The notes under the pieces are model-generated. The model saw only the letters and a program-made list of their open reading frames with translations, made no database searches and had not been told where the DNA came from. This document shows, piece by piece, positions 5,894-9,301 of a stretch of 40,534 bases of DNA; the first letter of the stretch is position 1, and each line of letters begins with the position of its first letter. A program made the position numbers and the translations under genes. Location of the stretch: the NCBI GenBank assembly GCA_023132435.1, contig JAGLYF010000120.1:1-40534 (forward strand), written 5' to 3'. This DNA is from Calditrichia bacterium. GTDB taxonomy: Bacteria > Calditrichota > Calditrichia > JAJRVZ01.

Positions 5894-8800
5894 TTGAATG
5901 AAAAAAAAGTAAACTGGTGGGGATGGGGAGATCCTAAAAAAAGCTATGATTTGTCCTCACGTCCTTTTTTCTGGACTCATTTAAAATCCCGGCTTAATAT
6001 TCCTGATAAACCATTTTTTTTCGCACCAAAATATGATGAAATTGATATACCGGACTGCCGATTATCTTCTATATTATTTAATCAACTTAAAAACTTCTTG
6101 AGTGAATCTCAGGTTTCAGTTTCAAATCTAGATCGAATATCTCATACCTACGGCAAAAGTTATCATGACCTGATTCGAATTCGCCACAAATTATTTCCCA
6201 ATACCCCTGATGCAGTTCTTTTTCCTGAAAGTGAAGAACAAGTTGAGAAAATTATAAAATGGGCTAAAGAAAACAAGATCGCTGTTGTACCCTGGGGTGG
6301 AGGAACAAGCGTTGTAGGCGGTGTTGAAACTGTGCATGAACCTTATCACAACGGACTAATTGTGTTAGACATGAATCGCATGAATCGTGTCCTGCATATC
6401 GATAAATCTTCTCTTGTAGCTGATGTTGAGGCTGGTATATTCGGCCCTGAACTGGAAATTAAACTTCAAGAGAATGGTCTCACCCTTGCGCACTATCCCG
6501 AATCATTTGAATTTTCAACTTTAGGCGGGTGGATTGCTGCCAGTTCAGCAGGACAGCAATCGACATTATATGGAAAAATCGAAGATATGATTGAAAGCCT
6601 GCGAATGGTTACACCATCCGGTATAGTTCGCACTCCTTCTCATCCTTCTGCTGCTACCGGACCAGATCAAAAACATCTACTATGCGGTTCGGAAGGAATA
6701 TTAGGTGTTATCACACAAGCCAGGATCAGACTCAAGATCATCCCACAACAAAAACTTTACACTGCTTACTTAATAGATACATTTGACGGCGGAATTGAAA
6801 TTTGTCGCCGGATTATACAATCCGGATTAAAGCCGGCAACTGTTCGTTTATCGGATGAAGAAGAAACTGATTTTATTTTTTCATTACGGGCACAAAAAGC
6901 AAATAAATGGAAAAGTTGGATTCAGCATGTATCATTGGAAATTGTTCGAAAGCGCGGTTTTTTACCCGGCAGACGCTCATTTATATTGCTTGGATTAGAG
7001 GGAGATAAAGAAGAAATAAAATACCAAAGGAAGAAAATTAACAAAATTCTAATGGATTTCAAAACCTTTGGTCTCGGTGAAGATACCGCCCAAACCTGGT
7101 ACCGTCACCGTTTCGAGAGTCCATACTTGCGGGATGTTTTATTAGATTATGATATATTGGTGGATACACTGGAAACTTCTACTGAATGGAACAATGTAAA
7201 ACATCTCTATAGTACCGTTAGAAATACTATTCTAACTACATTTCATAAATTAAAAATCAAAGGCGTCGTCACGGCGCATTTATCCCATCTTTACCCAACA
7301 GGTTGTTCTCTTTATTTCATATTAATAGCCATGCCAGTTGTCGGGAAAGAACTTGAAACATGGAAAGACTTGAAAACAGCTGCCTCTAATGCAATAATTA
7401 AAGCCGGCGGTAGTATCAGTCATCACCATGGTGTTGGGTTGGATCATCGTGCTTGGATAAAGCAGGATATTGGTGATACATCCGTGGAGTTGTTACGAAA
7501 TTTAAAAAAACAAGTCGATCCTCAGAATATTTTAAATCCAAAAAAATTATTACCCGATTCAAACCTGAAAGTTGATACATTTTTAGAAAAACAGGCAAGT
7601 GCTGAGGAAAGCCTGTCTTTCTCACCTGCTGTGCGGGAAGAAAATATAAAAAAATTGCAAACCGAACAGTATGATATTCTTGTAATTGGTGGAGGGATAA
7701 CGGGAGCCGGAATCATTAGGGATGCTGTGTTTCGTGGATATCGAACAGCATTGATTGAGAAAAATGACTTTGCATCCGGTACCAGCAGTAAATCATCCAA
7801 GATGATTCATGGTGGATTTCGCTACCTGAAAAATCTTGAAATTGGTCTTGTTCATGAGGCCTTGCAGGAAAGAAAAAATTTGATGGAACTTGCTCCCCAT
7901 CTGGTCCACCCTATGCAATGTTTATTACCAATCTATGAAGATGCTCCTAATCCGCCATGGATGGTTAAACTTGGCATGATGTTGTACGATGGTTTGTCAG
8001 GCACTAAAAGTATTGGTGCACACAAAATGATTTCTGTTGATAAAATCCACAAACTGGAGCCTATCTTACGGCGTAAGGGACTGAAAAAAGTCGGACTTTA
8101 TTATGACAGCTGGGCAGATGATTTCAGATTAGTAATGTCAACCATCCAATCAGCGGCACAGAAAGATGGGGTTATAGCTAATTACGTAAAAGCTGTCGAT
8201 ATATTCAGAGAAAATGGCAATGTGGCAGGTATTATGGCCCAGGATACAATAACCGGTAACATATTCCCCATTCGAAGTCGCGTTATAACCAATGCCACCG
8301 GTCCCTGGTCTGATGAACTAAGAAATGCATTATTTAAAGATAAGCAGCGCTATATTCGCACCACTAAAGGAATTCACCTGCTTATACACCGGGAACATCT
8401 GCCTGTAAATAATACCGTAGTCCTTTTATCTATTGAAGACCAACGCCCTATCTATGCTATTCCATGGCGAAAATTTGTCCTTATTGGTACCACTGACACT
8501 GATTATGATAGCGATTTGGACCGTGTACAAACCGAAAAAAGTGATGTGGATTACCTTCTCTCATCAATTAATTTTTATTTCCCATATGCTAATCTTAGTG
8601 AAGATAAAATCATCTCTACTTTTACAGGATTGCGTCCTCTGGTTTATGAAGAACAGAAATCAGCATCGGCCGTCACTCGTGAATACCAGATTTTTGAAAA
8701 GCCCACAAACTTCTTTACAATAATAGGTGGGAAACTTACAACGTATCGTACTATGGCAGAAGAAATGGTAAATCAAATGGGTAAGGTTTTGAAAACATCT

Positions 8801-9301
8801 TTTGATATCAGTGCAAAAAATGAAGAATGTACTACTGATGAATACTATTTGTATGGCGGTGATATTTCTGATTACGGGAATTTTTTTGAAGAATGGACCG
8901 GACATCTTATAAATAAGTGCGATTTTGACCAGGATATTGCTGAACACTTTGTTGAAACCTTTGGCAGCCGAATTCCTGATTTGTTAACTGCTATCGATGA
9001 TACTGAAGACGGAAGAAAACGTATATTACCGGAACTGCCCCATGTTTGGGGTGAATTAACATATGCATATCGCCATGAAATGGTTATGAGCTTGGATGAT
9101 TTTCTAATACGACGAACACATTTGTTTCCGCTTGATGCAAAACAATCCTGGGACATTCATGAATCAGTGGCAAACCGGTTGGGAAAATTACTAGGCTGGA
9201 CACATTCTGAAAAAAAATCCCAGATTGAACGTTATAAATCAAAAATCAATATTATTCAACATTATCGGGGAAAGGTTAATGAAAATACGATTCGTCGTTA
9301 A
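5894..9301 (+). CDS. Fusion: N-terminal alkylglycerone-phosphate synthase (AGPS)-like FAD-binding oxidase, C-terminal FAD-dependent glycerol-3-phosphate dehydrogenase (GlpD)
   Basis: N-half: PDAVLFPESEEQVEKIIKWAKENKIAVVPWGGGTSVVGGVE, STLGGWIAASSAGQQSTLYGKIEDM, SHLYPTGCSLYFIL and GGSISHHHGVGLDHRAW (AGPS-type HHH). C-half from about 7668: YDILVIGGGITGAGIIRDAVFRGYRTALIEKNDFASGTSSKSSKMIHGGFRYL...TNATGPWSDEL...GGKLTTYRTMAEEMV. Confidence 0.93.
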   Translation: MNEKKVNWWGWGDPKKSYDLSSRPFFWTHLKSRLNIPDKPFFFAPKYDEIDIPDCRLSSILFNQLKNFLSESQVSVSNLDRISHTYGKSYHDLIRIRHKLFPNTPDAVLFPESEEQVEKIIKWAKENKIAVVPWGGGTSVVGGVETVHEPYHNGLIVLDMNRMNRVLHIDKSSLVADVEAGIFGPELEIKLQENGLTLAHYPESFEFSTLGGWIAASSAGQQSTLYGKIEDMIESLRMVTPSGIVRTPSHPSAATGPDQKHLLCGSEGILGVITQARIRLKIIPQQKLYTAYLIDTFDGGIEICRRIIQSGLKPATVRLSDEEETDFIFSLRAQKANKWKSWIQHVSLEIVRKRGFLPGRRSFILLGLEGDKEEIKYQRKKINKILMDFKTFGLGEDTAQTWYRHRFESPYLRDVLLDYDILVDTLETSTEWNNVKHLYSTVRNTILTTFHKLKIKGVVTAHLSHLYPTGCSLYFILIAMPVVGKELETWKDLKTAASNAIIKAGGSISHHHGVGLDHRAWIKQDIGDTSVELLRNLKKQVDPQNILNPKKLLPDSNLKVDTFLEKQASAEESLSFSPAVREENIKKLQTEQYDILVIGGGITGAGIIRDAVFRGYRTALIEKNDFASGTSSKSSKMIHGGFRYLKNLEIGLVHEALQERKNLMELAPHLVHPMQCLLPIYEDAPNPPWMVKLGMMLYDGLSGTKSIGAHKMISVDKIHKLEPILRRKGLKKVGLYYDSWADDFRLVMSTIQSAAQKDGVIANYVKAVDIFRENGNVAGIMAQDTITGNIFPIRSRVITNATGPWSDELRNALFKDKQRYIRTTKGIHLLIHREHLPVNNTVVLLSIEDQRPIYAIPWRKFVLIGTTDTDYDSDLDRVQTEKSDVDYLLSSINFYFPYANLSEDKIISTFTGLRPLVYEEQKSASAVTREYQIFEKPTNFFTIIGGKLTTYRTMAEEMVNQMGKVLKTSFDISAKNEECTTDEYYLYGGDISDYGNFFEEWTGHLINKCDFDQDIAEHFVETFGSRIPDLLTAIDDTEDGRKRILPELPHVWGELTYAYRHEMVMSLDDFLIRRTHLFPLDAKQSWDIHESVANRLGKLLGWTHSEKKSQIERYKSKINIIQHYRGKVNENTIRR

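Follow-up and report, generated by a model that had tools for sequence, protein, structure and literature searches.

A fused AGPS-GlpD gene in a Calditrichia genome and its relation to a putative AGPS-GlpD-lipid kinase module

Introduction

What is the function of a protein in which an alkylglycerone-phosphate synthase (AGPS) is joined to a glycerol 3-phosphate (G3P) dehydrogenase (GlpD)? Such a protein is encoded on contig JAGLYF010000120.1 of a Calditrichia bacterium (GenBank assembly GCA_023132435.1), of which we analyzed a stretch of 40,534 nucleotides, here called the window. The gene is a single open reading frame (ORF) of 1135 amino acids with a TTG start, located at 5894..9301 on the plus strand. 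An earlier note made from the DNA letters alone had read it as both enzymes on one polypeptide, which is borne out by the ORF, the Pfam domains, the structure matches, and the intact active sites. The sequence analysis confirms that the fusion is genuine and that both catalytic sites are intact. Judging from gene neighborhoods in other genomes, the underlying unit is an AGPS-GlpD-lipid kinase module, of which the window gene represents the fused version, and our tentative reading is that this module salvages or degrades glycerol ether lipids.

Results and Discussion

Identity of the two halves

The N-terminal half of the fusion protein carries the Pfam domains FAD_binding_4 (residues 105-246) and FAD-oxidase_C (284-552), a VAO/PCMH flavin adenine dinucleotide (FAD)-binding and FAD-oxidase_C pair that is closest to AGPS (EC 2.5.1.26), while the C-terminal half consists of DAO (594-918) and DAO_C (979-1106). 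In the PDB phmmer search, the best solved relative of the N-terminal half is the Dictyostelium AGPS (E value of 4e-109), followed by the guinea pig AGPS (6e-92). The earlier note had considered that this half might instead group with D-lactate or glycolate oxidases; the D-lactate dehydrogenase and glycolate oxidase families match only at about 1e-28 and weaker, which rules out this assignment and leaves AGPS as the closest family. In the alignment, the guinea pig residues H300, T309, R419, R515, Y578, and H615-617 correspond to H200, T209, R318, R413, Y474, and H510-512 of the window protein, so that all of the catalytic residues whose possible loss had been raised (R318, R413, Y474, and H510-512) are kept. 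Three of the Dictyostelium counterparts, R352, R447, and Y508 (numbered as the chain index plus 3), have been described as important by mutagenesis (PMC3509576).

The best solved matches for the C-terminal half are GlpD and GlpO structures (PDB ID 3da1, E value of 7e-101; E. coli GlpD, 2e-76), and this half passes the cutoff of the NCBIfam GlpD model PRK12266 with 387.9 versus 360 bits. All seven of the E. coli positions H50, R54, Y55, H233, R317, R332, and K354, which we take to be the GlpD core, are present in the alignment, with R929 and K947 (E. coli R332 and K354) likewise conserved, and, gaps aside, these positions are invariant across canonical and AGPS-linked GlpDs. Nothing in the conserved residues suggests that one of the halves is dead.

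The AlphaFold2 model of the fusion, based on a 36-row alignment, has a mean predicted local distance difference test (pLDDT) value of 90.5 with both folds being confident, and a Foldseek search with this model matches GlpD/GlpO and AGPS (TMt of 0.85-0.93). The predicted template modeling (pTM) score of 0.58 indicates two well-folded halves whose mutual orientation is not fixed. The pLDDT falls below 50 at residues 557-572, which are predicted to be disordered. The linker had been put at about 35 residues; we correct this to about 20 (residues 555-575), because the FSPxxR sequence belongs to the N-terminal end of GlpD in relatives that are not fused, and the GlpD of two sister-family genomes (G003 and G005) aligns from its start with the window protein from residue 576 on. 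The features are collected in Table 1.

Table 1. Positions of the fusion gene and its parts in the window
Feature	Position	Strand	Basis
AGPS-GlpD fusion gene	5894..9301	+	1135 aa, TTG start; ORF, Pfam, structure-database matches
AGPS half, residues 1-554	5894..7555	+	Pfam, PDB phmmer, Foldseek
FAD_binding_4 domain	6206-6631	+	Pfam
FAD-oxidase_C domain	6743-7549	+	Pfam
AGPS Arg318 (guinea pig R419, Dictyostelium R352)	6845..6847	+	Alignment; PMC3509576
AGPS Arg413 (guinea pig R515, Dictyostelium R447)	7130..7132	+	Alignment; PMC3509576
AGPS Tyr474, proposed base (guinea pig Y578, Dictyostelium Y508)	7313..7315	+	Alignment; PMC3509576
AGPS His-His-His motif, residues 510-512 (guinea pig H615-H617)	7421..7429	+	Alignment
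Inter-domain linker, residues 555-575	7556..7618	+	AlphaFold2 disorder at 557-572; comparison with unfused relatives
GlpD half, residues 576-1135	7619..9298	+	Pfam, PDB phmmer, Foldseek
DAO domain	7673-8647	+	Pfam
GlpD active-site segment H639..R643-Y644 (E. coli H50, R54, Y55)	7808..7825	+	Alignment
GlpD Arg914 (E. coli R317)	8633..8635	+	Alignment
DAO_C domain	8828-9211	+	Pfam

In almost all of the sequence and structure comparisons, each half is assigned to a known family, the tree position of the AGPS half being less firm. In the best tree, the window AGPS lies inside a Calditrichota clade (support of 99) and outside the clade of eukaryotic and myxobacterial sequences (SH-aLRT of 98).

Occurrence and origin of the fusion

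The search for this domain architecture, which the earlier note had proposed, was run on a phylum sample of 41 genomes, all of one class (Caldithrix relatives), and found the fusion in the window's genome (G000, 92% complete) only. A second fusion of 1104 amino acids is present in a proteobacterial metagenome-assembled genome (MAG; locus L092). The scan that reached this locus used an AGPS alignment as the query; the whole fusion as a query against the genome contigs gave no match. A single shared origin of the two fusions is rejected (one-clade constraint, approximately unbiased [AU] test, P = 4e-6), and on this tree evidence the L092 fusion is independent of the window fusion.

Separate adjacent genes about 50-65 bp apart encode the two proteins in G003 and G005, with identities of 51% and 50-53%. 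At this spacing, one stop-codon loss could fuse them, and an in-frame GTG at position 7631 of the window is in principle a possible start codon for a separate GlpD. That the fusion is an assembly artefact, or a recent and meaningless stop-codon loss joining two neighboring genes, is nevertheless very improbable. Neither an in-frame stop nor a frame change is found in the junction sequence, every linker codon is open, and the linker itself is free of in-frame ATG, GTG, and TTG codons. The purine-rich GAGGAA about 21 nucleotides before the GTG is too distant for a normal ribosome site, and the independent fusion in L092 argues against an artefact of assembly.

A conserved gene neighborhood across phyla

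An AGPS alignment scan covered 85,488 species genomes, from which the best 80 named loci were kept; these were chosen by similarity to the query, and the frequencies describe that part of the AGPS family. GlpD adjoins AGPS in 53 of the 80 loci, supporting the idea that the two enzymes are functionally linked, and a lipid kinase is found in 35. Among the 52 loci flanked on either side by 4 kb or more, GlpD is found in 39 and the kinase in 28. The chance expectation of adjacent GlpDs is estimated at well under one, if a 4-Mb genome is taken to hold about 1.5 GlpD genes and the neighborhood to span 12 kb. A lipid kinase with DAGK_cat and YegS_C domains directly follows the AGPS-GlpD pair in G003 and G005, and in L069 and L081, two MAGs of Hydrogenedentota, GlpD is fused to the kinase. 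The two-enzyme unit described in the earlier note stands as far as the AGPS-GlpD link is concerned, but the note overlooked the lipid kinase as a third partner.

The linked pair or triad is found in Alphaproteobacteria (Parvibaculum and relatives), in Nannocystis and one Myxococcaceae genome, in Actinomycetota (Streptomyces, Nocardioides, Actinomadura, and Hoyosella), and also in Chloroflexota, Acidobacteriota, Bacteroidota, Hydrogenedentota, and two archaeal MAGs (L057 and L064). The archaeal MAGs have no PlsY, yet acyl-CoA dehydrogenases are present; contamination is possible, though the two are independent MAGs and group as sisters. The distances between AGPS proteins correlate with those between their linked GlpDs (r = 0.93 for 55 pairs, Mantel 0/2000; r = 0.88 for 32 thinned pairs), which is partly due to shared genome descent. 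In genomes with multiple GlpDs (Actinomycetota and Bacteroidota), the linked copy falls into a clade apart from canonical GlpD, in a tree with weakly supported backbone branches, and some lineages have no GlpD in the genome besides the linked one.

Regulators of the TetR type (25) and FadR type (4) are found among all 80 loci, the linked loci included, and in some lineages the linked loci carry acyl-CoA ligase, alpha/beta hydrolase, aldehyde dehydrogenase, glycerophosphodiester phosphodiesterase (GDPD), or glucose-methanol-choline (GMC) oxidase genes. Probes for the acyltransferase PlsC and for reductases resembling 3-hydroxy-3-methylglutaryl-CoA reductase (HMGR) gave no match at any GlpD-linked locus in the 80-locus set. 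A limited literature search found no description of an AGPS-GlpD-kinase module or fusion, and both are apparently undescribed in the papers that it covered.

Several single loci differ from this layout. In L034:7613-11103 (genome G054), the genes after an AGPS-like gene encode a CCG iron-sulfur protein resembling GlpC and a lipid kinase in split form, possibly an anaerobic version of the module. A Planctomycetota AGPS (L078:6001-7608) has a GDPD gene about 35 bp away. The IMG/VR "viral" contig L120 (4983-8182), on which an AGPS of actinobacterial type and a GlpD are encoded convergently, is probably host DNA, and the bins titled Bifidobacterium breve (L096 and L115), whose AGPS groups inside Solirubrobacterales, are probably mislabeled.

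Eukaryote-like AGPS loci

The gene neighborhoods and the AGPS tree distinguish two kinds of AGPS loci, one being GlpD linked and the other being eukaryote-like with a reductive context. The eukaryotic AGPSs cluster with L127 (Myxococcaceae), L061, and L055 (SH-aLRT of 98), and the loci with PlsC or HMGR-like probe matches are L055, L061, and L074, the first two of which belong to this eukaryote-like clade. In L061:1287-6021 (a Caldithrix MAG) and L055:4218-7650 (a Planctomycetota MAG), the AGPS gene stands in a row with genes for a PlsC acyltransferase and an HMGR-like protein, to which L061 adds a short-chain dehydrogenase/reductase (SDR). Both rows are candidate operons for the whole of ether-lipid synthesis, with a reductase of the FcrA type. 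FcrA, an HMGR-like protein, has been shown to be a fatty-acyl-CoA reductase, and its authors remarked on its co-occurrence with AGPS (PMC11948995). In L127, a large ORF with a match to fatty-acyl-CoA reductase (FAR) comes after the AGPS gene, a layout like that of the Myxococcus xanthus MXAN_1676 operon (PMC9131029). One Myxococcaceae genome (G064) has both kinds of AGPS at different places.

In G003, an HMGR-like protein with an N-terminal HMG-CoA_red_N domain adjoins a wax ester synthase/diacylglycerol acyltransferase (DGAT) gene (L189:3283-6541, contig C59), a candidate for FcrA together with wax-ester synthesis.

The host genome

Neither an FGGY glycerol kinase nor a GlpD homologue besides the fusion was found in the 92% complete G000, suggesting that the GlpD half does not serve free glycerol. 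The matches to PF07993 in this genome are weak (best E value of 2.5e-18, versus 5e-67 in a myxobacterium), and its sole HMGR is a 765-residue ORF fused to a GHMP (mevalonate-type) kinase inside a mevalonate-pathway cluster (L185:6083-8338, contig C323), which rules it out as an FcrA. On these grounds, no fatty-alcohol-forming reductase was recognized in G000 with the PF07993 and HMGR probes, although other families could serve, and the "compact bacterial route to alkyl-glycerol lipids" suggested in the earlier note is not borne out. G000 encodes several acyl-CoA dehydrogenases, and PlsY adjoins GpsA. No lipid kinase lies beside the fusion at the window locus.

Elsewhere in the window, oppositely oriented CACAGATTNCACAGATTACAC-type repeats (5712-5732 and 5835-5864; 0 expected by chance) occupy the AT-rich gap directly upstream of the fusion gene and are possibly a small mobile repeat, and genes for a NUDIX hydrolase, a CHAD-domain protein, and a ParA-like ATPase lie in a row on one strand at 16175-19002.

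A possible role in ether-lipid salvage

The fusion protein may be a bifunctional flavoenzyme acting at the level of alkyl- or acyl-dihydroxyacetone phosphate (DHAP), in a module for the salvage or degradation of glycerol ether lipids whose substrate, direction, and electron acceptor we infer; we hold this reading tentatively. The lipid kinase would convert 1-O-alkylglycerol into 1-O-alkyl-G3P, which might alternatively be released from lyso-ether-lipids by a phosphodiesterase. The GlpD half would oxidize C2 of alkyl-G3P to give alkyl-DHAP, with the electrons passing to the quinone pool, and the fusion would pass the alkyl-DHAP on to the AGPS active site. The AGPS half would then run in reverse, with FAD N5 taking up the DHAP unit and the fatty alcohol being released, and yield acyl-DHAP with a fatty acid as the acceptor or DHAP with water. 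AGPS catalysis is of the ping-pong type with a flavin-N5/DHAP intermediate (PMC3509576), so that the release of fatty alcohol from alkyl-DHAP would be its last step reversed. The kinase and the quinone-linked dehydrogenase in their usual directions lead from alkylglycerol through alkyl-G3P to alkyl-DHAP, the AGPS product and its substrate in reverse, and it is this direction together with the AGPS mechanism for which we favor salvage over biosynthesis. With a little more reserve, a widespread, oxygen-independent cleavage of glycerol ether bonds in bacteria and archaea can be envisaged, using lipid kinase, GlpD-type dehydrogenase, and reverse AGPS, possibly with water as the acceptor, the last two steps being fused here.

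The recurrence of the module, the co-divergence of its members, the independent fusions, the intact residues, and the lack of PlsC or HMGR-like matches beside GlpD-linked AGPS speak for salvage. The regulators and accessory genes of the linked loci, the missing glycerol kinase and recognized fatty-alcohol reductase in G000, and the PlsY-less archaeal carriers with acyl-CoA dehydrogenases point the same way. Other observations weigh against it. The direction described for AGPS is the forward one, in which the ether is made (PMC3509576). The reverse reaction with a fatty acid as the acceptor is probably uphill. Forcing the window AGPS into the eukaryotic clade is not rejected (AU test, P = 0.174), so its position outside that clade is not significant. 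An orthologue of the module kinase was not found in the 92% complete G000, whose two other lipid kinases are only 31% identical and not orthologous to it. The GlpD of the window clade retains canonical residues where the alphaproteobacterial and actinobacterial linked GlpDs have changed, and two genomes (G010 and G030) retain a sister GlpD without AGPS, suggesting that unmodified G3P may be a substrate of the GlpD half. Finally, fatty alcohols may be at hand in G003 and G005, which have an HMGR-like protein resembling FcrA.

The opposite direction, ether-lipid biosynthesis much as proposed in the earlier note but with another role for GlpD, is the main rival and a possibility of some weight, albeit a doubtful one. 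PlsY would make 1-acyl-G3P, the GlpD half would oxidize it to acyl-DHAP without the need for a DHAP acyltransferase, the AGPS half would exchange the acyl group for a fatty alcohol, and alkyl-G3P would arise from the alkyl-DHAP through reduction by GpsA or by the GlpD flavin in its reduced state, the reversal of GlpD into an alkyl-DHAP reductase being less natural for a quinone-linked dehydrogenase. This scheme fits the intact AGPS residues, the PlsY-GpsA neighbors in G000, the acyl-DHAP supply that the GlpD-AGPS adjacency would provide, the FcrA-like candidate of G003 and G005 as a fatty-alcohol source, and the possible placement of the window AGPS in the eukaryotic clade. However, it leaves the kinase without an obvious need, lacks a recognized fatty-acyl-CoA reductase in G000, and does not suit the archaeal carriers without PlsY, and the eukaryote-like AGPS genes sit in a different, reductive context. 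We do not favor it; the probes for PlsC-type acyltransferases and HMGR-like reductases found no such genes near GlpD-linked AGPS.

It is unlikely that the module handles some other glycerol-phosphate metabolite, with AGPS using a nucleophile other than a fatty alcohol or performing acyl exchange or repair on acyl-DHAP, while GlpD and the kinase recycle G3P lipids. The sequence does not reveal the nucleophile specificity, the bacterial AGPS lineages are strongly divergent in the tree, and a linked GlpD that is the only one of its genome could carry out ordinary G3P oxidation as well; yet the DHAP-handling residues R318, R413, Y474, and the His-His-His motif are all retained, and AGPSs are the strongest structural matches of the N-terminal half.

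Comparison with known systems

The AGPS half shares its fold, FAD site, and important residues with the known AGPS/ADPS enzymes (EC 2.5.1.26) of Dictyostelium (PDB ID 2uuu), guinea pig (4bby), and Myxococcus (MXAN_1676), from which it differs by being fused to GlpD, by falling, in the best tree, into its own Calditrichota clade, and by its gene context. The GlpD half shares the whole fold, DAO plus DAO_C, and the seven core residues with GlpD/GlpO (2qcu, 3da1, and 2rgh), but is covalently joined to AGPS in a genome without a glycerol kinase, and its relatives are encoded beside AGPS and a lipid kinase. A table for Mycobacterium bovis BCG lists Rv2249c (glpD1), the Rv2250c regulator, the "flavoprotein" Rv2251, and the diacylglycerol kinase Rv2252 as changing together (PMC4564863). 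Compared by gene name only, this run matches the Hoyosella, Streptomyces, and Nocardioides loci, and its genes are unfused and divergent, unlike the window fusion.

The alkylglycerol monooxygenase AGMO (EC 1.14.16.5) is described as the sole enzyme known to cleave alkylglycerol ether bonds (PMC3617469, PMC7911779). The proposed AGPS-GlpD route would have the same outcome, but AGMO is a tetrahydrobiopterin-dependent monooxygenase of another family, whereas this route would be oxygen-free. Myxococcus ElbD, with FAR, acyl-CoA ligase, acyl carrier protein (ACP), and acyltransferase domains (PMC9131029), and Ger/PlsA are bacterial ether-lipid enzymes too, but with different chemistry and domains.

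Significance

A gene fusion is strong evidence for a shared pathway, and the present one brings to light a three-gene module that is conserved in many phyla and apparently also in mycobacteria, where the AGPS member is listed only as a "flavoprotein." If the module cleaves ethers, it would explain how microbes can recycle ether lipids with no need for the oxygen-dependent reaction of AGMO; in the opposite case of ether synthesis, it would reveal a way for bacteria to supply acyl-DHAP without a DHAP acyltransferase. Published surveys use AGPS homologues as markers of ether-lipid synthesis in metagenomes (PMC11868695), and in either direction AGPS homologues alone would be unsafe for this purpose.

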